Shown here: positions 5,010 through 28,842 of the stretch, piece by piece | Numbering within the stretch: the first letter of the stretch is position 1 | Layout of the letters: each line of letters opens with the position of its first letter | Origin: Sedimentisphaerales bacterium | GTDB lineage: Bacteria; Planctomycetota; Phycisphaerae; Sedimentisphaerales; Anaerohalosphaeraceae | DNA: 64,000 bases | Assembly: GCA_016926155.1 (NCBI GenBank) | Contig: JAFGPC010000051.1 | Location: forward strand, 62,001-126,000 | Reading direction: 5' to 3' | Notes under the pieces: generated by a model | Database searches by the model: none | Seen by the model: only the letters and a program-made list of their open reading frames with translations | What the model was told of the DNA's origin: nothing | Made by a program: the position numbers and the translations under genes

Positions 5010-6917
5010 TCAGCCGTATGTATCCAAATTCGCGTCCTGGTACTTTTCGATAGTACTATGATGTTCGGACAGATACTCAATCCCGGAGATAACCGTAAAC
5101 AACAATCCCATCGCTCCCAGATTGTGTTTTCCGGGATCGGTAAGAATCTTCCGGATGGTTTCTGTTGACATGATCTGACCGATCCGTTTGCATGATGTGA
5201 TCTGTTCGGTCATGCATTGCAGTAGTTCGGCAGGATGCTCAAAGGCAGGCGGGGTGACAGGGATAGGCGGAGGAACAAGGGTTCTTTTGATCGACTTGTA
5301 GACAATTTTGGCTGGTCTTAATGCTGTTCGAATCGTGTTCCATGCCGCTTGTCCGATTCGGATTGACAAGGAAGGTTCGGTAAGAATCGGAATCCCCTTT
5401 TTTCTCCAATTCATCACTCGTGGAATATCACAAAGAGCAGGTGCAAGTTGCCCTAAGACAGCATGATATAATTTCCAACCTGCCTTTTGCTCATCCGGAC
5501 AATTATAAATGTAGTGGAAGAATGCCGTCGACCAGAAGGGCGACATGGCCCAGAATTGTGATCGGGGTCGGTCATCGGCTTCGAAATATCGTTTAAACGT
5601 TTGTTCGTAGATTACATAGTGCACGACCTTTTGTGCCGGGTCCTTTTCCGGATAGGATTCGAGTCGGGCCTTGAGCTCTCCCCGGATTGCATCGACGGAC
5701 AGACCTGTGATTGATGCAATGGTTTCAATGTCAAAATCTCCTCTACCCAACTGCCCTCTTTCTTTTTGCAGGATATAGTCGATCGCTTCATCGAGAGTAG
5801 TAACGCTCCATCCCGGTCTGAGATCACATGTAATCCGGTCTCCGGCCAATCCGGTAAAGAGAAGAAAATCGGAACCGACGATCTGCTGGATGTTTTCATA
5901 ATGCTGCAAGGATCGTGCTGTAATGAGAGGTACCTGACCGGGCTTGCGATGTAAAAGACTTAAAACATATTTGCCAATAGTCGGCTTCAAACGATATGGA
6001 TTCCATGGTATCCCCAATGTTTTGGCAACCTGCTCGGCGACTTCCATATCCAGAGAGGTCTTGCCCCTATGGTCCTGCCATGTGACCGTTTGGAAAGGGA
6101 TCTTTTCATGACTCAGGGCCGCGGCAATGAGACGCGAATCGAGCCCGCCGCTGAGGGACAGCACGAGGGATTTCTCCTGCTCCACACGGTTTCTGCACCC
6201 TTTGGAAAACAGACGAGCAGTCTGAGCGGCATTTTCTTCGAGAGACTTGTCTTTGTGTTCTTTCTCCTCAAAATTCCATTCATAGATGGTTTTGGAGGAA
6301 ATCGTTCCCTCGGACAGGTCAATTCGCAAGAGTGAGGCTGGTCCGAGGCGATCCACTCCTTCAATCAGCGTGCGAGGCCCCAGTCCGCACAGACAGAGTA
6401 AATACTGCGCAATAGCCATTCGGTCGAAATGAAATTCCCCCAGCATGGCGGTCATATATTCCAAATTTCTTCCAACCAGAATAAGATCACCTTGACGACT
6501 ATAGTACCACGGAAGTCGGGAAAAAATATCATTGAACAGGATCATCTGCCGGGTTGGCTTATGAATAAGATAGACCACGAACTCACCATCAGCAGTCAGC
6601 AGCCAATCAGCCAACTTCTGTTCGGCATGATGCCCATCGCCGAATAAATCATCAGCCAGCCCAATAAGTTCCTCATGCAAAACCGTTTCAGTTTTGTTGT
6701 AAATCCTTCCTTCCAACACGAGTTGATAGGAACCAAGATTAACGGAATGAACCGGATAGCCAGCATAGGCTGCCTGGCCTAGTATGTATTGGTCGGATTC
6801 CAGAAGGATTTGATCAGAATACTCTTCTACAGCCGAGGCATGAAGGGCTTGTTTGAAGGAATCCTTGACCGAACCAAGGGATTCACGAAGATTGCAGGCT
6901 AGACAAGTTCCAGGCAT
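5010..6917 (-). CDS. Asparagine synthetase-like protein (AsnB family) lacking the glutaminase cysteine
   Basis: A 635-residue protein with the two-domain AsnB layout. The C-terminal part has the ATP-pyrophosphatase loop SGGLDS at residues 256-261. The N-terminal amidotransferase-like part keeps the fold (GEFVVYLIHKPTRQMILFNDIFSRLPWYY at about 111-139 resembles the family's GxFA...L.RDxxGxxPLYY pattern). However, position 2 is Pro rather than the Cys that hydrolyses glutamine, and the protein begins MPGTC. It should therefore use ammonia or form another amide bond. Related proteins occur in beta-lactam, lasso-peptide and exopolysaccharide pathways, and the product here is unknown. A well-formed promoter lies upstream. 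Confidence 0.85.
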   Translation of the reverse strand: MPGTCLACNLRESLGSVKDSFKQALHASAVEEYSDQILLESDQYILGQAAYAGYPVHSVNLGSYQLVLEGRIYNKTETVLHEELIGLADDLFGDGHHAEQKLADWLLTADGEFVVYLIHKPTRQMILFNDIFSRLPWYYSRQGDLILVGRNLEYMTAMLGEFHFDRMAIAQYLLCLCGLGPRTLIEGVDRLGPASLLRIDLSEGTISSKTIYEWNFEEKEHKDKSLEENAAQTARLFSKGCRNRVEQEKSLVLSLSGGLDSRLIAAALSHEKIPFQTVTWQDHRGKTSLDMEVAEQVAKTLGIPWNPYRLKPTIGKYVLSLLHRKPGQVPLITARSLQHYENIQQIVGSDFLLFTGLAGDRITCDLRPGWSVTTLDEAIDYILQKERGQLGRGDFDIETIASITGLSVDAIRGELKARLESYPEKDPAQKVVHYVIYEQTFKRYFEADDRPRSQFWAMSPFWSTAFFHYIYNCPDEQKAGWKLYHAVLGQLAPALCDIPRVMNWRKKGIPILTEPSLSIRIGQAAWNTIRTALRPAKIVYKSIKRTLVPPPIPVTPPAFEHPAELLQCMTEQITSCKRIGQIMSTETIRKILTDPGKHNLGAMGLLFTVISGIEYLSEHHSTIEKYQDANLDTYG

Positions 6918-7043
6918 ACAACACCTCTACGTTCTTTGAATTTACGCTCCATTTATTCGATTCCTACAGGGAATCGACCTGATGCGATAAGTTCTTGAAC
7001 GGATGTTTCGTATTCAGCCTGAAATTCGATAGAGTTAACGGTG

Positions 7044-7072
7044 ATTATACTGATTGTGACCTCGGGCGTCAA
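7044..7072 (-). promoter_or_regulatory. Sigma-70-type promoter for the asparagine synthetase-like gene
   Basis: On the minus strand TTGACG (7067-7072) and TATAAT (7044-7049) are 17 bases apart. The predicted start, near 7037, leaves a leader of about 120 bases before the gene start at 6917. The promoter lies just past the stop codon of the upstream dockerin-type gene. Confidence 0.7.
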
Positions 7073-7087
7073 GAAAAAAGAGGTCGA

Positions 7088-8008
7088 TCAAAGCAGACAG
7101 CCAACGAGCCAGCTATCGGCAAAAACGGCCAGGTCGGACAAGCCAACGTAACATTCACCCCCGGCCAGATCGGCCGTCAGAGGGCAATCAGCCGGATTTC
7201 CAATCGCTAGCCATTGATCCGAGAAGGCCTGAACATCTTCGACATCCACGCAACCATTTCCCGTCAGATCGGCACACAACGCGGCAATGCACCGGCTGAA
7301 CCACCCCTCGGCCTGTAAAGTGCCACTTAGACCCAGACGGACAACGATGTCCGATTCTTCGTAAGCGACATGGTCAATGGAAAGAGGCAGCGTCACCAGC
7401 ACGCGATAATACGCTTTTTCATTCTGGATATGATCCAATGTGACTTCAATCTGGCCCTGTCCTTCCATGGTTGCCTCGATCGGTTCCTGGGCAAAGTCCG
7501 AACTCATCGGTTCAAATTGGCTTCCGATCAAACCGGTCCCTTCGGCGTAGACGGTTCCTTCATTGAGAATCACGACATGTTCGGACAGTTCAAAGGTATT
7601 TTCACTTACTGAACCGGGTGGAATAGGTGTTAAGACGGTTGCTGCGATTCCGGTGCCGTCGGCGATTATGCTTCCAAGAAAAGAGAAGTTGAGTCGATAG
7701 GAAACATCCGTCATTTCGATCCGTCCACCGTTGAAAGTTACGGTGGTTATTTCATCCGGTTGGTTGGACGGATCAAAGGAAAGTTCAATCTCAGAGAATA
7801 CATCCCCCGAAATCTCTGTAGTATCTGTGTCGCTAACAGTAGCGGTTCCCACTGTCACGGAAAAAGAGGTGTCCAGGAGGTTGGCCTGGGATGAAGGCGG
7901 AACCAGAGTCAGATCCACAAACATGACTTCTGCAAAGATTGGACTATGCAACAACAGGATCGTCAAAAACAGTGACCATAAGAATGGAGAATGAATGGTT
8001 ATATACAT
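7088..8008 (-). CDS. Secreted protein with C-terminal paired dockerin-like repeats
   Basis: A 306-residue exported protein. The signal peptide (residues 1-26, hydrophobic FLWSLFLTILLLHSPIFA) precedes a beta-rich Thr/Ser/acidic body without catalytic motifs. The last 60 residues hold two calcium-loop repeats, ADLTGNGCVDVEDVQAFSDQWL and ADLAGGECYVGLSDLAVFADSWL, which match the tandem dockerin-like tails common on planctomycete secreted proteins. No cohesin is encoded nearby, so the partner is unknown. The start has a strong CGGAGGAG ribosome site. The body is not recognised. It has its own promoter and probably forms a single-gene unit. Confidence 0.85.
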   Translation of the reverse strand: MYITIHSPFLWSLFLTILLLHSPIFAEVMFVDLTLVPPSSQANLLDTSFSVTVGTATVSDTDTTEISGDVFSEIELSFDPSNQPDEITTVTFNGGRIEMTDVSYRLNFSFLGSIIADGTGIAATVLTPIPPGSVSENTFELSEHVVILNEGTVYAEGTGLIGSQFEPMSSDFAQEPIEATMEGQGQIEVTLDHIQNEKAYYRVLVTLPLSIDHVAYEESDIVVRLGLSGTLQAEGWFSRCIAALCADLTGNGCVDVEDVQAFSDQWLAIGNPADCPLTADLAGGECYVGLSDLAVFADSWLVGCLL

Positions 8009-8135: not shown

Positions 8136-9686
8136 CTAATTCATTGGAAAGGTTTTGGACTGATGGATGATCTGGTACAGAAACGGCATCTTTTCAGACA
8201 GCATATCTATGATGTCCTGCGACAGGCAGGAAGGCCCAAAGGGAATCCGTTTGACATATTCCTGATCGTTTCCCGCAGTTCGTCCGTACTTGTACTCGTA
8301 GGTAAATTCCAGGGGCGATTCGATTTGGATGTTGGGATTGGTCTGATTGGGAACGCTGAGGAAAAATCGGCTTTGGGACAGATCGCTTTCGCCAAATCGA
8401 TCCGTGGTTGCCAGATAGTCATAGAGTTCGCCGGCCAGGCTCGGGGCCGGATCGATCAGGATAATGTTCTCGGTCATGAACGGGCGATAAATATACTCTC
8501 CATTTTCCTGATAATTATATAGCGCATCAAGTCTGTCAGCAAACTGCTCGCTGAAGAACGGATAGTGTGTACAGCCAAGGATCACAACCTTGAGTTTGCC
8601 GGCGTCGGATGCGATTCGAATCTGTTCCATGAGCGACGTGACATGATAGGCGATATAATTTTGGATGGAGTTGAGCTGAATATCATTTACTCGATTCTCC
8701 ATGCTGTCGAATAACAGGGCATTATTTATCGTATCAAATCCATATCTTGGCCAGATGGCCAGATCGATCCTTGCATCCGGATGGGTCTCTGAAGGTCCCT
8801 TGTAAGCCGGGCTGAATTCGATGGCTTCCGGCTGAAGATATTCACCAGCACCGTCAATCGCCCCAGCCAATCCGATCCCGGCTTGTTGAAAGATTGAAAT
8901 TTTTCCCCTTCGTCCGAGTTTGTCCTTTTGCGCGTTTAGAGCACGGACATAGCCATTCGAACTTACGGTGCCTGCGGTGGCAAATACGGCTATCGAGGCG
9001 TCTTCGTCTTCTTCGAGGGATTGCAATGCAGCTTGGACGCCGGCATCGATAATGCCGAAGACCTTCACATCCAGTCCGGAGCGACTGAGAAACCGCTCGA
9101 TTCGATCCATTCCGTATGCTGTAGCAGTGTTACATGCGACCACAATCGCTTTAACGGAGGGCTTGTCGGTCTGAACCATTGCATCGGTTGACGTAAGGTA
9201 GTATTGGTTGCCTAACAAAAACTGTACATCCTTGAGGATGTGTTCCTCCAGCAGGTCGATTTTGCTCTCTGCCGGATACGTTCCATAGGGCATATTGGCC
9301 TTGTCGCCCAGATAGAGAAAGTACTCCTGTTGAAAATCGCGTAGACCGTCACCATTGGGATTGGGTTGGTGGGTGTTGTTATCATGCCGATCAAAGTTGA
9401 CAATGGCATCCAGAACGGTCAGGCCTCCCGTACCTGAATCGAAGACACCTATCGGCAACAGGTGGTTGTCTCGAGGATAACGAGATACATCCAGATAAAA
9501 AGGACTATCGGGCTCGTACAGCATCCGGTCTTCGAGATCGTGCGAGATAACTTTATCATCATTCCAGAAACCACCCGAACATCCGGATAACATCAGGATC
9601 AATGCAAGAATCCAGTGGTGCAATCGATTCCGGTTAAGGAACTTTCGGATTAGGGCTGATCGGCTTTCTCGGTATAACTGGTCCAT
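8136..9686 (-). CDS. Exported lipoprotein of the aspartate/glutamate racemase (MurI-like) family
   Basis: A 516-residue protein that combines a lipoprotein leader (LMLSGC, lipidated Cys36) with a glutamate-racemase-like core. The family's catalytic residues are kept: Asp83-Ser84 in GVFDSGTGGLTVLD, Cys185 in VVACNTATAYG and Cys372 in ILGCTHYPFF. MurI is normally a cytoplasmic enzyme of about 265 residues that makes D-glutamate for peptidoglycan. This one is nearly twice as long, with insertions at about 97-120 and 285-345 and an extra C-terminus. Lipidation predicts an extracytoplasmic site. The gene starts inside the end of the GtaA-type gene (37-base overlap), with an AAGGAC site before the ATG, so the pair is co-transcribed. 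Confidence 0.88.
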   Translation of the reverse strand: MDQLYRESRSALIRKFLNRNRLHHWILALILMLSGCSGGFWNDDKVISHDLEDRMLYEPDSPFYLDVSRYPRDNHLLPIGVFDSGTGGLTVLDAIVNFDRHDNNTHQPNPNGDGLRDFQQEYFLYLGDKANMPYGTYPAESKIDLLEEHILKDVQFLLGNQYYLTSTDAMVQTDKPSVKAIVVACNTATAYGMDRIERFLSRSGLDVKVFGIIDAGVQAALQSLEEDEDASIAVFATAGTVSSNGYVRALNAQKDKLGRRGKISIFQQAGIGLAGAIDGAGEYLQPEAIEFSPAYKGPSETHPDARIDLAIWPRYGFDTINNALLFDSMENRVNDIQLNSIQNYIAYHVTSLMEQIRIASDAGKLKVVILGCTHYPFFSEQFADRLDALYNYQENGEYIYRPFMTENIILIDPAPSLAGELYDYLATTDRFGESDLSQSRFFLSVPNQTNPNIQIESPLEFTYEYKYGRTAGNDQEYVKRIPFGPSCLSQDIIDMLSEKMPFLYQIIHQSKTFPMN

Positions 9687-11752
9687 GTTTTATCGTCCTT
9701 GAGAAAGGGAATAAAAATACCGCCGATAACCGGACGGGCGCGAAAACCGCGAACCTTGGCCGTGCTGGTAAAGTACCAGTCACTGAACGGTACCCGATCC
9801 GGTGATTCGTCCGTGAAACGGTAAAGAGGACGGATCAGCATTTCAAAATCGCTCTTTTTTTCCGCCATCGTGGCGCACCATACCAGCCAGTCGGACTTAG
9901 TAAAGTCGGCCCGATTGTCCAGCGGCAACCCGTACTTGTTCTGGATTTTCAGGTAGTAGGTGATTTCAGTCCGGGCGATTTGTGGATCGAACAAGTCCAG
10001 ATTGAGAATCTCATCCCAGACCAGGTTATATTTCATGCTCCAGGTGCCGGGCTTGTCAAAGGCCAGGCGATAATGGTCGCCATCGTTGGCCATCTTCTGC
10101 CATTGACGGGCCATCTCCTTGGCGGCAGCCCGATATTGCCGGGCCTCCTGTGGTTTATCCATCTTCTCACAGAGCATCGCATAGGCTCCGATGGCATTTA
10201 TCGCTTTCAGCGAGAGGTTGACATTGTGTGCCAAATGTCCCGTGAAGTCGTCGGTACAAAGCTGATTTTCCGGATCGAGTCCCTTTTCCTTGAGGTAGCC
10301 GGCCCACTGGCTCAGCAGATCCCAGTAGCGTTTAGCAAAATCGGTGTTGCCGGACGCTTTAACACCGGCGGCTGTCATCAGGATCATGTTGCCGCATTCC
10401 TCGACGGGCATCTGACTCTCGAATCGCAGTTTACCCTCCCGGTTCCTGCCGTACGATTGACCATTGCCTTTTGGATAGGTACCTACGTCATGCGGTGCAA
10501 ACTCGAATGTCCAGTCTTCCGATCGAGCATATTCGAAGATCGGTGCACACATACCGTTGAGTAAGGTCGGAGAGAATAGGGCAAGAAACGGCGATGCAGG
10601 ATATGACACATCCACCGTTGCCATGCAGCCGTTGGAAAAACATTCTTTGTGGAAGAACCATGGCTCGGAACCGTCCGGAGAAACGACGATCTTGCCGCTG
10701 GCCCAGACATGCCGATAGGCGATGGCGACCAGATCTGCATATTCCTTTCCGCCGATTTTCCGGGCATCCGCAAGCAGGTCGACATCGAAGGAGTGGCGGC
10801 TTTTCCATACCTCCTGCGGTGTTTTGATGCATTGTTCCAGCATGGGCACAAATCCACCAAAAGCCTTGTAATACCAGGGGCGGAGTTTCTGGCCGAGGAA
10901 TTCAATGCTGAAAAGATCGTCATACGCCAGGGTCATCATGCAAGTACAGCTTCTATCCGCATGAACATCGAGGTTCATCACCGCGGCGATCACCGGCCAG
11001 TCGTCATTGGCCGGGCGAGGCATCCGGGCATCGTCGGTTTCGGGGATGGAACCGGTTCGGATGAACTGTTCACGGACACCATGCGGGGCAACGACGATCC
11101 GGTTATCGCCTTCCGTCGGCACGCCCACATAGAAATAACCCCAGTCGATCCGAAGGTTGTCGCCGGCTTTTTCGAGAATGGGCTGTTGGGCCGAGCCCAT
11201 GGAGACAAACTGCGTTCCAGCTATGGGTTTGGGCATGCGCTGCCAGACGATTTCCTGTCTGGCGTCGTTGATCACCCATTCACCTGAGGCGTCGAAGTAA
11301 ATCGTTACCTTGTGCGGTTTGTCGTCGGTTGCATTGACCTGAAACCAGACAAACGTAATCGGGGCGCTGAGCATCGCCAGGTCTGAAGAAAGCATGGGTG
11401 TGACGAAATTTAATCGCAATTTTACAGGGCCGGCTTCAAAGAAATAGGTTGTAGCCGTTGGTTGAACAGTTAACTGAGTCTGCTTGGCTGCCGTAGGGCA
11501 GACGACCTCGGGGCCCATGAAGCGATACGTCTTATCGTCGACGCGGATCATCCCGGCCATCGCATGGACCTGTCCGGTCCAGTGGACGGGCCAGGAATCG
11601 TAGAGATTGTCGGAAAATGACCAGACGCTCATATATGGATCGACCGTCACAAGCGGCACGGCGGGCGGACGGAACGAGTCGGTTTGGGATTCTGCACAAA
11701 AGGCGGGAAAACACAAAATTCCCATCAACAATACAGGTACAGCACTTCTCAT
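9650..11752 (-). CDS. GtaA-type glutaminase family protein (DUF4964/DUF5127/DUF4965/DUF1793)
   Basis: A 700-residue exported protein with a signal peptide (residues 1-20, ending CFPAFCAES). The opening RPPAVPLVTVDPYMSVWSF is characteristic of the family of fungal glutaminase A. The middle and end match the alpha-helical DUF4965/DUF1793 part (SEPWFFHKECFSNGCM, WDLLSQWAGYLKEKG, TKSDWLVWCATMA). The characterised fungal protein hydrolyses glutamine to glutamate, but bacterial members are mostly untested and the fold resembles glycoside hydrolases, so a sugar substrate is possible. A GAGGAG ribosome site lies nine bases before the ATG. The downstream overlapping gene is the racemase-like lipoprotein, which fits an amino-acid substrate. 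Confidence 0.85.
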   Translation of the reverse strand: MRSAVPVLLMGILCFPAFCAESQTDSFRPPAVPLVTVDPYMSVWSFSDNLYDSWPVHWTGQVHAMAGMIRVDDKTYRFMGPEVVCPTAAKQTQLTVQPTATTYFFEAGPVKLRLNFVTPMLSSDLAMLSAPITFVWFQVNATDDKPHKVTIYFDASGEWVINDARQEIVWQRMPKPIAGTQFVSMGSAQQPILEKAGDNLRIDWGYFYVGVPTEGDNRIVVAPHGVREQFIRTGSIPETDDARMPRPANDDWPVIAAVMNLDVHADRSCTCMMTLAYDDLFSIEFLGQKLRPWYYKAFGGFVPMLEQCIKTPQEVWKSRHSFDVDLLADARKIGGKEYADLVAIAYRHVWASGKIVVSPDGSEPWFFHKECFSNGCMATVDVSYPASPFLALFSPTLLNGMCAPIFEYARSEDWTFEFAPHDVGTYPKGNGQSYGRNREGKLRFESQMPVEECGNMILMTAAGVKASGNTDFAKRYWDLLSQWAGYLKEKGLDPENQLCTDDFTGHLAHNVNLSLKAINAIGAYAMLCEKMDKPQEARQYRAAAKEMARQWQKMANDGDHYRLAFDKPGTWSMKYNLVWDEILNLDLFDPQIARTEITYYLKIQNKYGLPLDNRADFTKSDWLVWCATMAEKKSDFEMLIRPLYRFTDESPDRVPFSDWYFTSTAKVRGFRARPVIGGIFIPFLKDDKTWTSYTEKADQP

Positions 11753-15397: not shown

Positions 15398-15961
15398 CTA
15401 CAAACTATTGCGGCGTCGCAGCCAGCCGACAATTCCAGTCCCGAGAGAAGCAAGCGCAAATGCCCCCGGAGCCGGGTTCATGACGGGTGACGGAGTATCC
15501 AGGGATTCATTGATTGTAAAGTTATCAATGGCTACAAAATCCACTGCTCCCCCAATACGGAATTGGATCAGATTCACTTTCGTGCCCCAATCCTCAAATC
15601 CATACCATGTCAGCTTATCGGTCAGATCAATCGTCGAGGTGCCGACGCGAGTGAAATCGCCGCCGTTTAATAGGTATCCCCGGACTTCTACGGTAACCGG
15701 GCTGGAAGTGACACTGGCCAAATAAGCGCCATTAAACAAGAAAGGAGTCGAGGCGATAGCTGTCCGTGAGATCAGTTCAACATTTCCCAAGACATTATCG
15801 CTTGTCCAATCGCTGTTATCTACAGCGCCGGCTCTCGACCAATACAAGCCCTCGTAAGACCGGACCGAACCACTTATACCCTCGAAACCAATTACACCGG
15901 CGGTGACAAAGGATGACAAAAATAGGAGACATCCCACAAGGAAGAATCTCTTCGTGTTCAT
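15398..15961 (-). CDS. PEP-CTERM sorting domain protein
   Basis: A 187-residue secreted protein. An N-terminal signal peptide (MNTKRFFLVGCLLFLSSFVTAG) and a C-terminal tripartite anchor (NPAPG, hydrophobic ALASLGTGIVGWL, then RRRNSL) mark it as an exosortase substrate, as commonly seen in Phycisphaerae. The body is beta-rich with a segment resembling carbohydrate-binding or extracellular-matrix folds (TWYGFEDWGTKVNLIQFRIGGAVDFVAIDNFTI), but no family is certain. I placed the start at 15961 because AAGGAAAG precedes it. No exosortase gene is in the window. A single-gene unit ending in a clear terminator. Confidence 0.87.
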   Translation of the reverse strand: MNTKRFFLVGCLLFLSSFVTAGVIGFEGISGSVRSYEGLYWSRAGAVDNSDWTSDNVLGNVELISRTAIASTPFLFNGAYLASVTSSPVTVEVRGYLLNGGDFTRVGTSTIDLTDKLTWYGFEDWGTKVNLIQFRIGGAVDFVAIDNFTINESLDTPSPVMNPAPGAFALASLGTGIVGWLRRRNSL

Positions 15962-16487
15962 TTTCTCTTTCCTTACAAATCCCACACATTCCTATGACTT
16001 GCTTTAAAAATCATCAAAATAAAGGACACATAATTTTCCCATTTCGACTCCTTTCCGCCCCTTGGGTCTTCTTTAAACCTCTCCTGTTCGTTATCCCTAC
16101 ACGTAAGATTTGTTAATATTCTTGACAGACGCTTAAACGAAACACATTTCCCTTATCAAATTTCAGTCCCGTTTCCTCTCCCGTGGAGGTATTTCCTGAA
16201 TCAGAGGGACTGCACACTTCTCATCTAGATCAAAGAAAAATACTGAAAATGGCGGGATTTTATAGATGGGGAAAAAACAAAGATTTAATCCCCACTCCGG
16301 GTTTCTTGGTCGATCTAAACATGTAAAACTTTCATCTTTTGGTTGTATACGTTTTATCCGGGATAAAGTTCATTTTTCGGGAAGAGTGAATTTTACTGAT
16401 GTAGACATCAATTAATACCTCTGAGCCAGCCCTATTGGGTATTCAAATGGCTCCCAAACAACCATGAAATTGCCCATTTTACACTTG

Positions 16488-16734: not shown

Positions 16735-16807
16735 AAGCACTTCCAGCCTTGACAGAGGTGTCCGCCGGCGGGTATGATGGTGCCACGTGCGTGGACGGGG
16801 CGGTGAT
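16735..16807 (+). promoter_or_regulatory. Promoter-like module, copy 2, for the glycosidase operon
   Basis: TTGACA (16749-16754) and TATGAT (16773-16778) are 18 bases apart, giving a predicted start near 16785 and a leader of about 135 bases before the first gene at 16920. The whole segment is 71% identical, without gaps, to 15206-15278. A dyad CCACG-TG-CGTGG at 16783-16794 overlaps the expected transcription start, where a repressor could bind. Confidence 0.7.
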
Positions 16808-16919
16808 AGAGGGTCATTCCTGCCGTGATGTCCGACTGCAATACTGGGAAAGAAGGGGAAACTGGGGAGGACCAGGGATTGAAAAGAACGAAACGACAAA
16901 TCCAGGAAAGGATAAAATC

Positions 16920-19900
16920 ATGAAAGGCATGCCGGTATTTTTAAGTTCCATATTGTTTCTTGTTGGTATGACCTTGTGTCTGGCTTCATGTTCGGCCCAG
17001 GCCGGGATTGAGCCGGCCTATCTGCGTTGTGAATACAAGGTCAATCCGCTGGGGCTGGATATGCCCGATCCCCGGCTGAGCTGGGTTGTGCAGTCGGATC
17101 AGAGGGCACAGACACAAACGGCCTATCATATTCTCGTGGCCGGCAGTCGCGAACTGCTCGACAAGGATCGGGCGGACCTTTGGGATACCGGCAAGGTCAT
17201 GAGTGATGAAACTTCGCAGATTATCTATACCGGCCGGCCGCTGCGTTCGAATATGGAGTGCTACTGGAAGGTTCGCGTTTGGGACCGGCGGGGCGAGCCG
17301 TCGGCCTGGAGCGCGCCGGCAAGATGGACGACCGGGCTGATGGATTCCGGCAAGGAATGGATTGCACAATGGATCGGATTCGATGCCAGCCGCGACCGCT
17401 CTGTAGCCCAGTTTGATCTGTCATTCGAAAAGGCAAAGTGGATCTGGTATCCGGAAGGCAATCCACGCAACAATGCGCCGGTGGGTGGGCGTTACTTCCG
17501 CGCAATGTTTACAATTCCGCAGGATCGTACGATCAAACGTGCAACCGCCGCAATCAGCGCCGACAACAGTTATAAATTTTTTGTCAATCATCGGCGAACG
17601 CGGGACGGCAGCAATTTTAAGACAGCGATCGCTTTTGATATGACCGATCGTGTCAGACCGGGACGGAATATCGTCGCAGCCGAGGCGGTCAATGAAGGAG
17701 ACTCGGACAATCCGGCGGGATTCCTGGCGGTGATCAAGATCGAGTTTGACCGGGGCGAGCCGATGATGATCGTCAGCGACAAGAAGTGGCTGGTCTATAA
17801 TAAAGGCAGTGATGACTGGATGAACCTGGACAAGGATACCGGAGACTGGAAGCAAGCCATGGAACTGGGTGACTATGGAAGCCAGCCATGGAATAATATC
17901 GAAATTAAATCCACCGAATTATTCCTGCCGCCGGTGCAGTACCTGCGGAAAGAATTTTCCTGTGACAAGGAAATCCACCGCGCTGTAGTCTTCGCCTCGG
18001 CTTTGGGTAATTATGAACTGCACGTGAATGGAACACAGGTTGGGCGGGATTATTTCACGCCCGGCTGGACCGATTACAACATCCGCGTCTACTACAATAC
18101 CTACGATGTGACGGAAATAATTCACAAGGGCGATAATGCCATCGGGGCGATGTTGGCTGACGGTTGGTACAGCGGACACATCGGCTGGCAGCATATGCGG
18201 GACCATTATGGACAGAATCCAAGATTTTCCGCCATGCTCCGTGTTGAATATGTCGACGGCAGCGTTAAGCTTGTACCAACCGATGATTCCTGGAAGGCCT
18301 CGACCGGGCCGATTCTGGAGGGTGATTTCCTGATGGGTGAGACCTATGATGCCCGTCTGGAAATGAATGGCTGGGCTGCGGCCGACTTTGCCGATACGGG
18401 CTGGAAGACGGTTGATGTGACCAGCAAGATCGAGGCGAAAATTCAATCCTATCCTGGCGTTACAGTACAGGTCTTCCAGGAGATTCGACCCCGGACGATT
18501 GCCGAGCCGGAAAAGGGAAAATATGTTTTCGATATGGGAACCAACTTTGCCGGTTTTGTAAGGCTCAAGGTCAAGGGCCGGCCGGGCCAAAAGATAGTCC
18601 TGCGTTTCGCAGAGCGGCTCAATCCGAATGGAACCATCTACACGATCAATCTGCGCGGAGCACGTGCCACAGATACATATATCTGTAAAAGCGATGCCGT
18701 CGAGATCTGGCAGCCGCGGTTTACATTCCATGGCTTCCAGTACGTCGAGATCAGCGGCTTGGATCAGCGGCCTTCCCTGGATACGATCACGGGGATCGAG
18801 CTGACCAGCGCTACACCGATTGCAGGCAGCTTTGTCTGCAATGATGAGACGGCCAATCAGCTTTATAAAAATATATGTCAGACACAAAGGGCCAATTACA
18901 TTGATATCCCCACCGATTGTCCGCAGCGGGATGAACGCCTGGGCTGGACGGGCGATGCACAGGTCTATGTGCGGACGGCAACCAATAATACCGATGTCTC
19001 AGCCTTCTATACCAAGTGGCTGGTGGATCTGGAAGATGCGCAGGGACCGACGGGCGACTTTCCGGATGTGGCCCCGCGCAAGGTGGCCACCGGAGGCGGA
19101 ACGGCGGCCTGGGGGGATGCTGGCGTGATCTGTCCCTGGACGATCTACCTGATTTACGGGGACAAACGGGAATTGGCTGAGCACTATGACGGCATGCAGC
19201 GCTGGGTGGACTATTGCAAGGGAATCACCAAGGACCTTCTACGTCCCGCCCAGGGTTATGGTGACTGGCTGAGCATCAATGCCGATACGCCCAAGGATGT
19301 GCTGGCAACGGCCTATTTTGCCTACAGTACAAAGCTGACCGCAAAGGCCGCCGAAGTGTTGGATAAGGCCGAAGATGCAGTCAAGTACAACAATCTGTTT
19401 GAAGACATCAAAGCGGCCTTTAATAAGGCCTATGTTGCCGAAGATGGGCACATCAAAGGCGATACGCAAACAGTATATGTATTGGGACTGATGTTCGATC
19501 TGCTGCCCCAGGCCAAGCGGCCTGCCGCCGTGAAGTATCTGGTTGACAATATTGCCCAGCGAGGCTGGCACCTGTCCACCGGGTTTGTCGGCACCAAGGA
19601 TCTGATGATGACACTGTACGATGTCGGACGACTGGATGTGGCGTACCGGCTATTCCATAATGATACGTTCCCGTCCTGGGGCTTTTCCATTCGCCACGGT
19701 GCTACGAGTATCTGGGAGAGGTGGGATGGCTGGACCCCGGACAGAGGCTTCCAGAATCCCGGTATGAACAGCTTTGCCCATTACAGCTTTGGTGCGGTGG
19801 GCGAGTGGATGTTCAGGACGATTGGCGGGATCGATACGGACGGACCCTCGTACAAACAGATCATTATTCGACCTCGGCCGGGCGGGAAAATCCATGAGGC

Positions 19901-20168
19901 CCGGGTCAGCCATAAATGTATCCGCGGGATGATCCATACGGATTGGAATCTGTCGGGAGATGTATTTACGTTGAAAGTAGATGTCCCGGCTAATACGACC
20001 GCCCGGGTTTATATCCCGATCGACAAACGGGATGCGGTTTCCGAAAAAGGCAATTTTGTTGGTACGGATTATTTGTGCATCGAAGACGGCTCGGTCGTCT
20101 ACCGCATAGGCTCGGGTAGCTATGAGTTTGCCGCCAAGGGCGTCAAGCCGATTCAAATGGCTGAATAG
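16920..20168 (+). CDS. GH78 alpha-L-rhamnosidase, lipoprotein
   Basis: A 1082-residue glycoside hydrolase expected to release alpha-L-rhamnose from polysaccharides or glycosides. The leader ends in the lipobox LASC, so it is probably an exported lipoprotein. The N-terminal fibronectin-like domain has the family opening EPAYLRCEYKVNPLGLD and PRLSWVV. Beta-sandwich domains follow, one carrying the family's ADGWYSG segment. The (alpha/alpha)6 barrel contains the acid motif DCPQRDERLGWTGDAQ at residues 666-681. The C-terminus ends with PANTTARVYIP. The start at 16920 is chosen for the AGGAAAGG site and the signal peptide; the longer open frame runs back through the promoter. First gene of a five-gene operon. 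Confidence 0.95.
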   Translation: MKGMPVFLSSILFLVGMTLCLASCSAQAGIEPAYLRCEYKVNPLGLDMPDPRLSWVVQSDQRAQTQTAYHILVAGSRELLDKDRADLWDTGKVMSDETSQIIYTGRPLRSNMECYWKVRVWDRRGEPSAWSAPARWTTGLMDSGKEWIAQWIGFDASRDRSVAQFDLSFEKAKWIWYPEGNPRNNAPVGGRYFRAMFTIPQDRTIKRATAAISADNSYKFFVNHRRTRDGSNFKTAIAFDMTDRVRPGRNIVAAEAVNEGDSDNPAGFLAVIKIEFDRGEPMMIVSDKKWLVYNKGSDDWMNLDKDTGDWKQAMELGDYGSQPWNNIEIKSTELFLPPVQYLRKEFSCDKEIHRAVVFASALGNYELHVNGTQVGRDYFTPGWTDYNIRVYYNTYDVTEIIHKGDNAIGAMLADGWYSGHIGWQHMRDHYGQNPRFSAMLRVEYVDGSVKLVPTDDSWKASTGPILEGDFLMGETYDARLEMNGWAAADFADTGWKTVDVTSKIEAKIQSYPGVTVQVFQEIRPRTIAEPEKGKYVFDMGTNFAGFVRLKVKGRPGQKIVLRFAERLNPNGTIYTINLRGARATDTYICKSDAVEIWQPRFTFHGFQYVEISGLDQRPSLDTITGIELTSATPIAGSFVCNDETANQLYKNICQTQRANYIDIPTDCPQRDERLGWTGDAQVYVRTATNNTDVSAFYTKWLVDLEDAQGPTGDFPDVAPRKVATGGGTAAWGDAGVICPWTIYLIYGDKRELAEHYDGMQRWVDYCKGITKDLLRPAQGYGDWLSINADTPKDVLATAYFAYSTKLTAKAAEVLDKAEDAVKYNNLFEDIKAAFNKAYVAEDGHIKGDTQTVYVLGLMFDLLPQAKRPAAVKYLVDNIAQRGWHLSTGFVGTKDLMMTLYDVGRLDVAYRLFHNDTFPSWGFSIRHGATSIWERWDGWTPDRGFQNPGMNSFAHYSFGAVGEWMFRTIGGIDTDGPSYKQIIIRPRPGGKIHEARVSHKCIRGMIHTDWNLSGDVFTLKVDVPANTTARVYIPIDKRDAVSEKGNFVGTDYLCIEDGSVVYRIGSGSYEFAAKGVKPIQMAE

Positions 20169-20289
20169 AGCACCGATTTTACAATTTGTTGCCGTTTGTG
20201 TGAATTCAGCGGCCTCATTGCGCAAAACGAAACATCGCGGGGATGTAATGTACGCATGCATTTTATTTTGCTAATAGAAAGGATTTGCA

Positions 20290-23133
20290 ATGAAAATAGC
20301 AAGCTGTTCCATCCCAAGTATTTCTTTAGTGTGTGTTTTGTTTGCGTCTGTCAGTATGGCCGACAGAAACGTAATCCGTTTTAATTCGGACTGGCGCTTT
20401 AACAAAGGCGAGATGGAAGGCGCTGAGAAGGTGGACTTTGATGATTCGGCATGGAAGCCGGTGAACATACCGCACGACTGGGCCATCTCCGGTCCCTTCG
20501 ACCCAAAGGAAAACGGCTATGCCGGCAAGCTGCCCTGGCGTGGAGTCGGCTGGTATCGAAAGACCTTCTCACTGAAGAAAGCCGATCAAAGCCGAAGAGT
20601 ATACGTGGATTTTGGGGGAGTGATGGCCTTTCCCAAGGTTTATGTCAACGGGCAATTGGCAGGGCAATGGGATTATGGATATATGTCGTTCCGGGTGGAT
20701 GCGACACCGTATGTGAAATTTGGCGGGATAAATGTGATTGCTGTTCAAGCCGATACGCGACGACACGGCACCCGGTGGTATCCCGGTGCGGGGATCTATC
20801 GAAATGTCGCGATAACAATCTGCGATCCCGTGCACGTTGCCCACTGGGGTACGTTTGTGACAACGCCCGAAGTGAACGATTCTTCCGCGACGGTTCATGT
20901 AAATGCAACGATTGAGAACCATCTTGATGCCGAAGCAAAGATCCAGGTCGAAGCGATCCTGATCGGACCGGATGGTCGGCCGGTGGTTCGGGCCAGAAAG
21001 GATTACGTTGTTCCGGCTAATGGCTCCTGTCAGGCGGAGCCGTCTTTTGAGATCTCCGATCCCCAGCAATGGGATGTGGACAGCCCGAATCTGTATACCG
21101 CCAAGGTCATACTTTCCAGGGACTACAAAATACTTGATACGGACGTGGTATCATTTGGAATCCGTACGTTCGAATTCACTGCTGACGATGGATTTCATCT
21201 CAACGGCCGGCGAGTCCAGTTGTATGGTGTCAACCTACATCACGATCAGGGACCGCTGGGGGCCGCATTTTACACAAGGGCGATGGAGCGGCAACTGCAG
21301 ATCATGAAAGAGATGGGATGCAATGCACTTCGCACCAGTCACAATCCGCCCGCGTCCGAGGTGCTCGATTTATGTGATCGGATGGGAATTATTGTCTGGG
21401 ATGAATGTTTCGACAAGTGGAATGAGACATCGGACCGACTTCGGGATGTGGATCTGGTGGAGCACAATAAAAAGCAGCTTTGGAATTTAGTCATGCGGGA
21501 CCGGAATCATCCCAGTGTGGTGCTCTGGTCGATTGGAAATGAAATTTCCGATGTGGAAGGTAACGCCGGTGGAAGAGGTAAGGAGCAGGTTCGAATTCTC
21601 GGTGAATTTGTCCGGATGCTTGATCCGACCCGCCCGGTCGGGATGGGGTGTTATATTCCTTCCGCCGTAGGAACGCGCGTACTGGAAACCCTGGATCTTA
21701 CGGGTTGGAATTATGCTCGACGATATGCTCCATGTCGAGAGCTTTTCCCGGATAAGCCGATTATATACAGCGAATCCGCTTCGGCGTTGAGCACGCGGGG
21801 CTTCTATGATTTTCCTCTATCGAATCAGAAAACCCAGTATTCCGACCAGTTTCAGGTGGATTCGTATGATCTCAATGCAGCGCCATGGTCGGATATCGCC
21901 GATGCCGAGTTCAAGCTTATGGAGCAGGATCGCTTTGTGGCCGGCGAGTTTGTCTGGACGGGATTTGACTATCTAGGAGAGCCCACGCCGTTTGCTCAGG
22001 AAGCGAGGAGTTCCTACTTCGGGATTGTCGATCTGTGCGGGATTCCCAAGGATCGTTTTTATCTGTATCGGAGTTATTGGCGGCCGGAAGTCGTTACAGT
22101 ACACATTCTTCCGCATTGGAACTGGCCGGACCGTGTTGGAAAAAACGTGCCGGTGTTCGTCTACACGAATGGGGATTCAGCCGAACTGTTCTTAAACGGC
22201 AAGTCTCTCGGGCGGCGCACGAAGGGAAAACTGCCGGAACGACCTGAGAATTTTGCCCTGGGAAAACCTGCGACGGCCGGCACCCACCAATCGGAATATG
22301 GACATGTCGCCAATCACGCCAACGACGGAGATAATGATACGCGTTGGTGCGTTTCTTCCGGTCAGGTCGAGCAGTGGTGGCAGGTCGATCTGGGCAAAAT
22401 GCAGCCGATCCGCTTTCTTTCGATTGGTTTCGAAAAAGAAGAAAAGAATTATGGATATGTAATCAAGGCCTCGTCCAATGCATCCGACTGGACTACTCTT
22501 GTGACCAAGAAAACCAGTCAGGAACCTCGATGGGGCGGCCCGAGCGAACAATTCCACGATGTGGATGTGCAAGCCAGATACGTACGAATAGAGTTTACGG
22601 AATTACGATCCGGAATATGGGCAAGTATTCGGGAATTCGGCGTTTTCCCCGCCAAAGTAGAGTCTTTCTATTATAATCCAACCTACCAATATCGCCTGCG
22701 ATGGAACGAGGTCGTGTATGAACCGGGCGAATTGAAGGCAGTTGCTTACAAGGATGGAAATAAAATTGGTGAAGCAACAATGCGGACTGCGGACAAACCA
22801 GCCTCGATTCGCCTGACACCCGATCGTAAGACCTTGAAAGCGGATGGGCAGGACCTGTGTTATGTTTTAGTTGAGGCATTGGATGAGCAAGGAACATTGT
22901 GTCCCCTTGCCGATAACCTGATCCATTTCAAGGTGCAAGGGCCTGCGGAAATCGCAGGTGTGGGTAACGGAAATCCACTTTCCCTCGAACCGTTTCAGGC
23001 CGATTTTCGCAAATTGTTCTATGGCAAGGCGATGCTGATCCTTCACATAATCGAAAACCGCTCGGGTTCTATTCGGGTTAGTGCGTCCAGTGAGGGATTG
23101 GTATCAGACAGTATGAAGATCGAGAGTGAATGA
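20290..23133 (+). CDS. GH2 beta-galactosidase-type enzyme with inserted CBM32-like domain
   Basis: A 947-residue secreted glycosidase. After a signal peptide (residues 1-24), the GH2 jelly-roll begins (FNSDWRFNKGEMEGA, PHDW). An Ig-like domain and the TIM barrel follow (NLHHDQGPLGAAFY, NALRTSHNPPASEVLDLCD). The acid/base Glu418 is in SIGNE, and Glu495 in IIYSESAS is the probable nucleophile. Residues of about 653-790 are an F5/8 type C (CBM32-like) domain inserted before the final Ig-like domains (ALGKPATAG start, WWQVDLG, RYVRIEFTE). It could act on beta-galactosides or related beta-linked sugars; GH2 specificity is not readable here. An AGAAAGG site precedes the ATG. Four-base ATGA overlap with the longest possible start of the next gene. 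Confidence 0.93.
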   Translation: MKIASCSIPSISLVCVLFASVSMADRNVIRFNSDWRFNKGEMEGAEKVDFDDSAWKPVNIPHDWAISGPFDPKENGYAGKLPWRGVGWYRKTFSLKKADQSRRVYVDFGGVMAFPKVYVNGQLAGQWDYGYMSFRVDATPYVKFGGINVIAVQADTRRHGTRWYPGAGIYRNVAITICDPVHVAHWGTFVTTPEVNDSSATVHVNATIENHLDAEAKIQVEAILIGPDGRPVVRARKDYVVPANGSCQAEPSFEISDPQQWDVDSPNLYTAKVILSRDYKILDTDVVSFGIRTFEFTADDGFHLNGRRVQLYGVNLHHDQGPLGAAFYTRAMERQLQIMKEMGCNALRTSHNPPASEVLDLCDRMGIIVWDECFDKWNETSDRLRDVDLVEHNKKQLWNLVMRDRNHPSVVLWSIGNEISDVEGNAGGRGKEQVRILGEFVRMLDPTRPVGMGCYIPSAVGTRVLETLDLTGWNYARRYAPCRELFPDKPIIYSESASALSTRGFYDFPLSNQKTQYSDQFQVDSYDLNAAPWSDIADAEFKLMEQDRFVAGEFVWTGFDYLGEPTPFAQEARSSYFGIVDLCGIPKDRFYLYRSYWRPEVVTVHILPHWNWPDRVGKNVPVFVYTNGDSAELFLNGKSLGRRTKGKLPERPENFALGKPATAGTHQSEYGHVANHANDGDNDTRWCVSSGQVEQWWQVDLGKMQPIRFLSIGFEKEEKNYGYVIKASSNASDWTTLVTKKTSQEPRWGGPSEQFHDVDVQARYVRIEFTELRSGIWASIREFGVFPAKVESFYYNPTYQYRLRWNEVVYEPGELKAVAYKDGNKIGEATMRTADKPASIRLTPDRKTLKADGQDLCYVLVEALDEQGTLCPLADNLIHFKVQGPAEIAGVGNGNPLSLEPFQADFRKLFYGKAMLILHIIENRSGSIRVSASSEGLVSDSMKIESE

Positions 23134-23159
23134 TCTGTCGAACAGAAAGCGGGTGTGCG

Positions 23160-25976
23160 ATGTCAATGCGATTATTGTCAATCCTACTACTGATTTCAGG
23201 GATATATTCCCTGCCTTCCAGTGCATCGGAAATAGATCGTTATAATGTCCTGTGGACCAGTCCCAGCAAAGATGCTTCCGGGAGTATGCCGTTGGGAAAT
23301 GGAGACATCGGCCTGAATGTCTGGATGGAGGAAACGGGAGATCTGCATTTCTATATAAGCAAGACCGATGCATGGGGCGACAACGCCCGCCTGCTCAAGA
23401 TCGGCAAGATCCGTATCAATATTTCCCCCAATCCATTACAGGCGGATTCCTCGTTTCGACAGGAACTGCAACTGGAAAAGGGCATGATTGTTTTTGAGTT
23501 GAATCAGGGGAAATCGAATGCAATCAAAGTATCCATCTGGGTGGATGCCAATGATTCGGTGGTTTACATAACTGCTGAATCCCCTGAACCGGTTATATTA
23601 ACCGGTTATATTGAGTTGTGGCGAAACAAACCCTTTGAATTACCCTCGCTGGAATGCAGCGATGTAATGCAAATCAGCCATTCCCGCCCCAAAGATCCAA
23701 TGGGGCCTACAATTGTACAGCCGGACACAGTCTTCAAGGATTTGCAGGGACAAATCGGCTGGGTGCACTACAACAGCAAATCTGTAGGTCCGGAGATCAC
23801 CATGAAGATCCAGGGCCTGGATGATTTTTCCATGCCCGATCCACTGTTGGGACGTACATTTGGAGCGGTAATTACTGCCGACAACAGCCAACGAATCGAT
23901 GACCTGACGTTGAAAACCAAGCCGGCCGTTTTCCATCGCTTTAACGTGTTTGTATTAACTGAACATCCGTCTACTCCCGAAAAGTGGCTCAACACGGTGG
24001 ATGGGATAATCAAGCAGACCGAGCAGACCGATTTCACTATTCGCCGCAATCGTCACGAGCAGTGGTGGCGTGATTTCTGGCAACGGAGCTGGATTCATAT
24101 TGATTCAGATATCCCCCCGTCTCTGCCGGTAATGGTGGGCCGGAACGATCACCCGGTCCGGATTGGTGTGGATCAGGCGGGAGGTAATCGATTTGTCGGG
24201 CAGATCGGTCGAGTTTCTCTATTCAAACAGGCACTCAGTCCGGAGCAGATCCTGCTTTTAACCCTGAATCGGACAATTATAAAGAGAGAAGGTATCATCG
24301 GAAGCTGGATGGATGTGCCGATTGGCAAAGAGCTTGCGGAGATTGATTCCAAGAACCTGACCGGACCTTTGACATTGGAAGCGTGGATCCTGCCCGGTGC
24401 GCTTCCGGAATCTGGTGGCCGCATCGTAGACAAGGTAACGCCGGGCAAAGATGATGGGATTTTGCTGGATACCTGGCCGGGTAACAGTTTGCGTCTGATC
24501 AGTATAGTCGGGCATGTCGAAGTGAAAGAATGCCTAACCCTCGGAACTTGGCATCATGTGGCGGCAACACTCGATCCATCCACTGGAATACAACGTCTTT
24601 ATTTGGATGGAAAAATAATCGGTGATCTAACTATAAACATAACAAAACCAACCTTTGTCCTATCGCAATCATATCAGCTTCAGCGATTCATTAATGCCTG
24701 CGCAGGGCGGGGACGATATCCGATTAAATTTAACGGTTCGATCTTTACCGTTCCCGCCGCCGGAATGCCGGGGGATGCCGATTTTCGTCGGTGGGGGCCC
24801 GGTTACTGGTGGCAGAATACGCGGCTGCCGTATATCAGCATGCCCGCTTCGGGCGATTTTGATTTGATGCGTCCGCTATTTCGGATGTATGTCGATGATC
24901 TGATGCCGCTATTTGTCCATCGAACTAAAAAATACTTTGGTCATGATGGCGCCTATGTTCCGGAGTGTATCTATTTCTGGGGGACGGTTTTTAGTGAAAC
25001 GTATGGATGGACGCCGTATGAAGAGCGCCGGGACAAGCTACAGGAAAGCGGCTGGCATAAGTGGGAGTGGGTGTCCGGGCCGGAACTGGTCTTTATGATG
25101 TTCGATTATTATGACTATACATTGGATGAATCGTTTCTACAGAAGTCTTTGCTTCCAATGGCTCATCAGATCCTGACATTTTTCGACGAACACTATAAAT
25201 CAGGAGATGACGGCAAGCTCATTATGCATCCGTCGCAGGCCCTGGAAACATGGTGGGACTGCACTAATCCCATGCCGGAGGTAGCGGGTTTGCATGCGGT
25301 AACCCAGCGTCTGCTCGCATTGCCTGACAAATTTGCGACTACCGAGCAACGTGAGTTCTGGCAATCATTGCAGAACAAGATGCCTCCTCTGCCAATCCGC
25401 GAGGTGGATGGCGTTCGAATGCTTTCTCCCGCCGACAAATTCGCAGATAAACGAAACATTGAAAATCCGGAGTTGTACGCTGTTTTCCCGTTTCGGCTGG
25501 TCTCGTTCGAAAAGGACAATGCAGCTCTTGGCCGGACTGCCTTGGAGCACCGTCAAGATCGTGGCAATTTCGGCTGGAGGCAGGATGACATTTTTATGGC
25601 CTACCTCGGCCTGACTGATCAGGTCAGAGAATATGTCGTTGGACGGGCTCGGAATAAAGATAAAAACTCGCGTTTTCCAGTGTTCTGGGGCCCCAATTAT
25701 GATTGGGTGCCCGATCAGGATCATGGAGGGATTCTGCTCAAGACAGTTCAGTCCATGCTGCTGCAGACCGAGGGCAAAAAAATTTTCCTGATGCCGGCCT
25801 GGCCGAAGCAGTGGAATGTGGATTTCAAACTTCACGCACCCCGCCGTACTGTGCTACAGGGACGATATAAAGAAGGCCGACTCGAGCGACTTGATGTAAC
25901 TCCCGTCGAACGAAGGGAAGATGTTATCATCGTGAATTCAGCTTCTCCCAATAAGGAACAGGAAAATCCCAATTGA
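23160..25976 (+). CDS. DUF5703 / GH95-like secreted protein with inserted LamG domain
   Basis: A 938-residue exported protein. Following a signal peptide (MSMRLLSILLLISGIYSLPSSA), the N-terminal domain opens WTSPSKDASGSMPLGNGDIGLN and continues FYISKTDAWGD, typical of DUF5703 proteins related to GH95 and GH65-type (alpha/alpha)6 hydrolases. Residues of about 320-490 form a LamG/concanavalin-like domain (GPLTLEAWILPG, TWHHVAATLD, RLYLDGKIIG) set into the chain. The helical barrel then resumes at QSYQLQRFINACAGRGRYPIKF. Substrate is unknown; a role in polysaccharide breakdown is inferred from the operon. The start is uncertain: 23130 overlaps the preceding stop as ATGA, but 23160 gives a proper signal peptide. 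Confidence 0.85.
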   Translation: MSMRLLSILLLISGIYSLPSSASEIDRYNVLWTSPSKDASGSMPLGNGDIGLNVWMEETGDLHFYISKTDAWGDNARLLKIGKIRINISPNPLQADSSFRQELQLEKGMIVFELNQGKSNAIKVSIWVDANDSVVYITAESPEPVILTGYIELWRNKPFELPSLECSDVMQISHSRPKDPMGPTIVQPDTVFKDLQGQIGWVHYNSKSVGPEITMKIQGLDDFSMPDPLLGRTFGAVITADNSQRIDDLTLKTKPAVFHRFNVFVLTEHPSTPEKWLNTVDGIIKQTEQTDFTIRRNRHEQWWRDFWQRSWIHIDSDIPPSLPVMVGRNDHPVRIGVDQAGGNRFVGQIGRVSLFKQALSPEQILLLTLNRTIIKREGIIGSWMDVPIGKELAEIDSKNLTGPLTLEAWILPGALPESGGRIVDKVTPGKDDGILLDTWPGNSLRLISIVGHVEVKECLTLGTWHHVAATLDPSTGIQRLYLDGKIIGDLTINITKPTFVLSQSYQLQRFINACAGRGRYPIKFNGSIFTVPAAGMPGDADFRRWGPGYWWQNTRLPYISMPASGDFDLMRPLFRMYVDDLMPLFVHRTKKYFGHDGAYVPECIYFWGTVFSETYGWTPYEERRDKLQESGWHKWEWVSGPELVFMMFDYYDYTLDESFLQKSLLPMAHQILTFFDEHYKSGDDGKLIMHPSQALETWWDCTNPMPEVAGLHAVTQRLLALPDKFATTEQREFWQSLQNKMPPLPIREVDGVRMLSPADKFADKRNIENPELYAVFPFRLVSFEKDNAALGRTALEHRQDRGNFGWRQDDIFMAYLGLTDQVREYVVGRARNKDKNSRFPVFWGPNYDWVPDQDHGGILLKTVQSMLLQTEGKKIFLMPAWPKQWNVDFKLHAPRRTVLQGRYKEGRLERLDVTPVERREDVIIVNSASPNKEQENPN

Positions 25977-25990
25977 TTGGAGGATGACTC

Positions 25991-28777: not shown

Positions 28778-28842
28778 GGTGGTTCAGAAAAAGGTCGAAT
28801 CCTAAATGTTCCTCATTCCTCTGGGATAACGGGAGAGTACGA

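Follow-up and report, generated by a model that had tools for sequence, protein, structure and literature searches.

The window analysed here comprises 64,000 nucleotides of contig JAFGPC010000051.1 from a Sedimentisphaerales bacterium (Planctomycetota). Its reverse strand carries an open reading frame (ORF) for a 516-residue racemase-like lipoprotein with an Asp/Glu racemase fold (positions 8136-9686; all features of this locus are on the minus strand), overlapping a 700-residue ORF of the GtaA family (9650-11752). The two ORFs share exactly 37 nt (9650-9686). An AAGGA of Shine-Dalgarno type (9696-9700) precedes the racemase ATG by 10-14 nt, within the 3' end of the GtaA ORF. The alternative starts TTG22 and TTG29 lose the overlap and retain the lipobox, so the overlap is conditional on the choice of start codon. 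The predicted lipoprotein signal peptide covers residues 1-35 (9582-9686), with a 25-residue n-region, a hydrophobic core and the LSG that leads to the lipobox cysteine, Cys36 (9579-9581). The equivalents of the catalytic Asp and of the first and second catalytic Cys of the glutamate racemase MurI are Asp83 of an FDSG motif (9438-9440), Cys185 of ACNTA (9132-9134) and Cys372 of GCTHYP (8571-8573). A preliminary description of the locus had listed both ORFs with their coordinates and overlap, the LSGC lipobox and these three residues, and every one of them was recovered.

Pfam and NCBIfam recognise only a partial Asp/Glu racemase in the window protein. The match to Asp_Glu_race (PF01177, 8.2e-10) is partial, and TIGR00067 gives 81.9 bits, under its curated cut-off of 146.65; the relatives L108, L013 and L060 (L numbers denote loci of the family described below) score 84-90 bits and likewise stay under it. 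The motifs FDSG, PYG, ACNTA and GCTHYP are all intact. In the family alignment (73 members with seven canonical MurI rows) Asp83, Ser84, Pro133-Tyr134-Gly135, Cys185-Asn186-Thr187, Thr237, Thr240, Cys372 and His374 are invariant, the invariance of Cys185 being partly a matter of selection, since ACNTA or ACNSA was used to choose the ORFs; Cys372 was no selection criterion. As 46 distinct members align across the whole core, these landmarks are not due to chance. An AlphaFold model built from an alignment of 46 window and locus sequences has a mean pLDDT (predicted local distance difference test) of 90, and its best PDB matches are all MurI glutamate racemases (2dwu: Z 28.0, 258 residues, 2.5 Å), whereas aspartate racemases reach a Z of at most 17.7. 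Residues 72-508 of the model align throughout as a MurI fold and not as the alanine-racemase fold, dependent on pyridoxal 5'-phosphate (PLP), of the broad-spectrum racemases (Bsr). The core of the window protein measures 438 residues, against the usual length of about 250.

As in bacterial lipoproteins, and judged from the sequence alone, the LSGC that ends at Cys36 lies behind a hydrophobic core (mean Kyte-Doolittle value 2.65). A simple heuristic for an N-terminal hydrophobic core detected one in 72 of the 73 stand-alone family members. The same scan found a core in only one of 33 canonical MurI proteins of related genomes, where the cytoplasmic, signal-less form is typical (32/33) and the start codon lies 1-13 residues ahead of the first motif. 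Convincing lipobox-like matches also occur in L039, L047, L060 and L065, and most other members look like proteins with Sec type I signals or uncleaved anchors. The family core contains 1.02 cysteines per 100 residues versus 1.94 in canonical MurI, a halving that is expected for a protein outside the cytoplasm. Predicted export is therefore a family-wide trait of which the lipobox is a minority form, and the racemase would be located outside the cytoplasm.

The window protein itself is a poor query. As a single query it retrieved no relatives in the scan of genome contigs, and in viral contigs no match was found with the protein alone or with a conserved, family-specific segment of 48 residues; the empty single-protein scans are explained by the divergence of this member. 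Among plasmids and phages the searches met only incomplete matches that resemble canonical MurI (about 25-33% identity). The 58 further genomes checked from its family and order contained no relative of the window protein; a sample of the phylum, with 391 other genomes, contributed two long homologues. With the 48-residue segment 234 loci were confirmed in GTDB genomes; the 80 that best match this one segment were examined, so that neighbour frequencies are biased accordingly; many of them are short contigs of metagenome-assembled genomes, with gene starts picked by a heuristic. These loci stem mostly from Planctomycetota and Verrucomicrobiota, with single loci in Latescibacterota, Omnitrophota, Gemmatimonadota and Holophagaceae. 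The long form is infrequent in the samples: within the window's class 6 of 397 genomes have it (the other matches cover the model partially and are nearly all frames of canonical length), as do 5 of 289 genomes of a Verrucomicrobiota sample. In a posterior mean site frequency (PMSF) tree the family forms a single, well-supported clade (100/100) that excludes the 23 canonical MurI proteins. The window protein and L108, of the same order, are sisters (57% identity), and both fall inside a starred set with members from Latescibacterota, Omnitrophota, Gemmatimonadales and of Phycisphaerae type; the deepest placements are unsure because of long branches. A literature search of open-access scope found no exported, secreted or periplasmic glutamate racemase. 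The exported MurI-like racemases would be a family not remarked on before, found mainly in the Planctomycetota and Verrucomicrobiota.

Several members are fused to, or lie next to, enzymes acting on D-amino acid derivatives or on the cell wall. In L022, L030 and L037 the racemase is fused to a D-aminoacylase-like amidohydrolase (PDB D-aminoacylase, 5e-79), and in L066 and L078 to a Peptidase_S11 DD-carboxypeptidase (5e-36, with PDB matches too); the latter fusion gives added support to an extracytoplasmic location. A deacylase gene lies directly downstream of the racemase in L044 and L140 (PDB N-acyl-D-glutamate deacylase 3gip, 2e-77 and 3e-65), and the L044 deacylase is exported judging by its N-terminus. 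The deacylase-partner label requires three changes on the tree, so this link was gained, or gained and lost, more than once. Genomes tested for the related NF006560 family hold about one such gene each, which makes chance adjacency of deacylase and racemase in several lineages seem unlikely. A gamma-glutamyltransferase gene is located after the L040 racemase, and before that of L016/L017 stands a glycoside hydrolase (GH) of family GH3 near the beta-N-acetylhexosaminidase NagZ (190.5 bits, cut-off 207). An alanine racemase gene (alr) lies 1-3 nt upstream of the racemase in ten checked Opitutae loci, and a SpmA/B-like Gate-domain protein is encoded upstream in eight Prosthecobacter-type loci. 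L139 contains a 752-residue fusion (5533-7791, minus strand) of a BPL_N/glutamine-amidotransferase-like domain to an exported racemase domain. In L180 (contig 129 of the related genome G445) a 975-residue exported ORF joins an N-terminal neutral ceramidase-like domain to a D-aminoacylase-type amidohydrolase; it was rejected as a fusion of the family, the partner being another enzyme and a racemase being absent. FGE-like neighbours (matches in two loci, no fixed position) and Gfo/Idh/MocA neighbours (nine loci, no fixed position, a large family) were likewise rejected as conserved partners.

Thirteen genomes hold the exported form alongside a canonical MurI: by locus title, twelve Verrucomicrobiota, one of them titled Akkermansia, and one Gemmatimonadales. 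In these genomes the exported form is thus an extra and no wall-synthesis enzyme. The 99%-complete Pirellula genome G418 (L005/L013) contains the exported racemase and no detectable MurD, so that the racemase cannot serve the standard wall-precursor pathway there. MurD is present in the window's genome, and class-IV aminotransferases are present, none of them over the curated cut-off. A bifunctional DapF has been proposed as the source of D-glutamate for MurI-less bacteria of the Planctomycetes-Verrucomicrobia-Chlamydiae (PVC) group (PMC5885031). For a broad-spectrum racemase with a secretion signal, D-glutamate reached the cytoplasm only after removal of the signal (PMC12502697).

From the fold, the conserved catalytic residues, the signal peptides, the clade, the fusions and the neighbours computed here we infer the actual export, substrate, activity, direction and physiological role of the racemase. 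We lean towards an exported, cofactor-independent MurI-like racemase of acidic amino acids, which would most likely convert D-glutamate to L-glutamate in salvage. The signal peptide, with a lipobox in the window member, would take the enzyme through the inner membrane. Its MurI-like site may then use Cys185 and Cys372 as the two bases that deprotonate and reprotonate D- and L-glutamate, or a close acidic analogue, and so interconvert the enantiomers. The D-glutamate could come from peptidoglycan peptides, N-acyl-D-amino acids or gamma-D-glutamyl compounds, freed outside the cytoplasm, and would be turned into L-glutamate there and then taken up. The sequence itself gives no reaction direction; extracytoplasmic salvage is favoured because of the thirteen genomes with both forms, the DapF proposal, the class-IV aminotransferases and the result on signal removal. 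For the family as a whole, the balance is about even for a dedicated exported PLP-free glutamate racemase of the Planctomycetota, Verrucomicrobiota and some other phyla, which would drive D-glutamate metabolism outside the cytoplasm in concert with D-aminoacylases, DD-carboxypeptidases and gamma-glutamyltransferases, in some cases within one polypeptide.

A number of observations weigh against salvage of D-glutamate by the window protein. It is divergent (31-41% identity to 45 aligned members), and in it and in L108 an Asp (Asp278, 8853-8855) replaces the conserved active-site Glu of MurI, which is kept in nearly all others; this position aligns with the equivalent of Glu147 of the Aquifex enzyme. 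The L140 deacylase, which overlaps the racemase by 4 nt, has no obvious signal peptide. The PDB match lists of the deacylases include PpOngB, by its PDB name a carbohydrate de-N-acetylase, so that relatives acting as sugar-acid deacetylases exist; because the deacylase superfamily includes such sugar-acid enzymes, D-glutamate may be, rather than must be, the common substrate of deacylase and racemase. The window's own genome contains no relative of the D-aminoacylase-type partner at E 1e-25, and the only close neighbour of the racemase is the GtaA gene; the salvage role is therefore carried over from other lineages. Finally, a biosynthetic role is conceivable, since no canonical MurI was found in the window's genome or in any of the tested Planctomycetes and Opitutae.

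These points bear on several other explanations. An unused signal on a housekeeping MurI that supplies D-glutamate to the cytoplasmic MurD would fit the presence of MurD without canonical MurI in the window's genome, and also the alr-racemase adjacency in Opitutae, which again lack canonical MurI. Yet signal peptides are nearly universal in the family and a fusion to a DD-carboxypeptidase exists, and D-glutamate could be obtained from DapF (PMC5885031) or perhaps from aminotransferases; with the thirteen dual-form genomes and the MurD-less G418 added, we regard a housekeeping enzyme as very unlikely. The exported location, the fusion to a DD-carboxypeptidase/transpeptidase-type domain and wall-linked neighbours such as alr and the SpmA/B-like Gate protein (eight loci) could also be expected of an extracytoplasmic producer of D-glutamate or other D-amino acids for editing of wall or matrix, comparable to BsrV/BsrF but without PLP. 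Periplasmic racemases acting in D-amino acid production are known in Vibrio (PMC7890096), a precedent for such a producer. The strictly conserved MurI pocket points to glutamate, however, and the deacylase, gamma-glutamyltransferase and NagZ-like partners indicate breakdown. Glutamate is not known to be exchanged into the terminal positions of stem peptides, and a producer seems rather improbable. We are similarly doubtful that a racemase or epimerase of the same fold acts on another substrate (aspartate, an N-acyl or sugar-derived amino acid, or a gamma-linked peptide), with insertions reshaping the entrance. The low TIGR00067 score (81.9 vs 146.65 bits), the long core (438 vs about 250 residues), PpOngB among the D-aminoacylase relatives and Asp278 in place of Glu would all agree with it, but glutamate racemases are the closest structures by a wide margin in Z and FDSG, PYG, ACNTA and GCTHYP are intact. 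The Asp278 change and the divergence of the window subgroup might even suggest a catalytically dead binding or regulatory lipoprotein that retained the racemase fold; as neither the window protein nor the family at large has lost the catalytic Cys, Asp, Thr or His, this is the explanation to which we give least credence.

The preliminary description had gone further and joined the two overlapping genes in one module, in which the GtaA protein frees glutamate from glutamine outside the cell and the racemase converts it. The genes do overlap on the same strand and both have export signals by inspection, and the ORF is a clear GtaA-family member with the domain order DUF4964-DUF5127-GtaA_6_Hairpin (PF16335: 454 bits, gathering score 24.9); all 28 aligned GtaA members match PF16335 and PF17168. 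But a GtaA homologue lies beside none of 79 family loci. Only 2 of 21 family genomes have any GtaA gene, the window's genome included, and in the second it is on a different contig; the other racemase-bearing genomes of the order (G656, G700, G780 and G716) have none (0/4). Without the racemase, GtaA is frequent in the order (38/161 genomes), and close relatives of the window GtaA gene, at 65-72% identity, turn up in genomes lacking the racemase, as in L176, where the homologue (65% identity) is followed by an Xaa-Pro aminopeptidase (M24). GtaA as a conserved racemase partner was rejected on these grounds. The preliminary description had itself named a lack of co-occurrence among homologues as a result that would sink the module, and this is the result obtained. 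The GtaA model is closest to GH116 and GH52 glycosidases (Z 25-27 over about 590-635 residues). In a published assay, a Streptomyces homologue of this domain make-up had weak beta-galactosidase activity and no glutaminase activity (PMC9668830), and a glutaminase function of bacterial members is doubtful. Further along the window, five large glycan-degradation ORFs lie on the plus strand (16749-31062): two GH78 rhamnosidases, a GH2, a DUF5703/GH95-like protein and a 928-residue ORF without Pfam match (25991-28777). Because of the lack of co-occurrence, the model, the Streptomyces assay and this run of glycosidases, we read the window GtaA protein as probably a glycosidase of a local glycan-degradation region, whose gene lies ahead of the racemase by coincidence and has at most a transcript in common with it, without being a true partner. 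The glutamate module is thus scarcely likely. What stands of the preliminary description is the exported MurI-type protein, which is supported by sequence and which the signal cores in 72 of 73 members turn into a family property. Two further ORFs of the window, both on the minus strand and without Pfam match, encode an exported protein of 306 residues with a C-terminus like two dockerin-type repeats (7088-8008) and a protein of 195 residues with a C-terminus resembling a PEP-CTERM-type sorting tail (15398-15985).

Glutamate racemase is usually regarded as a cytoplasmic enzyme of wall synthesis and as a drug target. If a MurI lineage is indeed exported and fused to D-aminoacylase-type and DD-carboxypeptidase domains, some bacteria would racemise glutamate outside the cytoplasm. 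BLAST counts of MurI homologues in the PVC group (compare PMC5885031) could then mislead on the capacity for D-glutamate synthesis, since they risk treating exported proteins as enzymes of wall synthesis.

Compared with MurI/RacE (TIGR00067; 2dwu, 1zuw, 1b73), the family shares the two-domain fold (Z up to 28), the Asp-Ser, PYG, CNT and CTH motifs and the catalytic Cys pair, but differs in its signal peptide, its longer core with family-specific insertions, its C-terminal extension, its scores under the TIGR00067 cut-off, its separate clade and its halved cysteine content. With the periplasmic BsrV and BsrF it has in common an export signal on an amino-acid racemase; the Bsr enzymes are PLP-dependent proteins of the alanine-racemase fold, whereas the MurI fold of the window protein gives no reason to expect a PLP site. 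The neighbouring gene is by sequence a clear member of the GtaA family (PF16335, PF17168 and PF16334), yet it differs from a glutaminase partner in its doubtful function, its GH116/GH52-like model and the lack of a conserved adjacency to the racemase. The D-aminoacylases and N-acyl-D-glutamate deacylases (1m7j, 3gip), absent from the window's own genome at the threshold given above, are fusion or neighbour partners of the family in several separate lineages.

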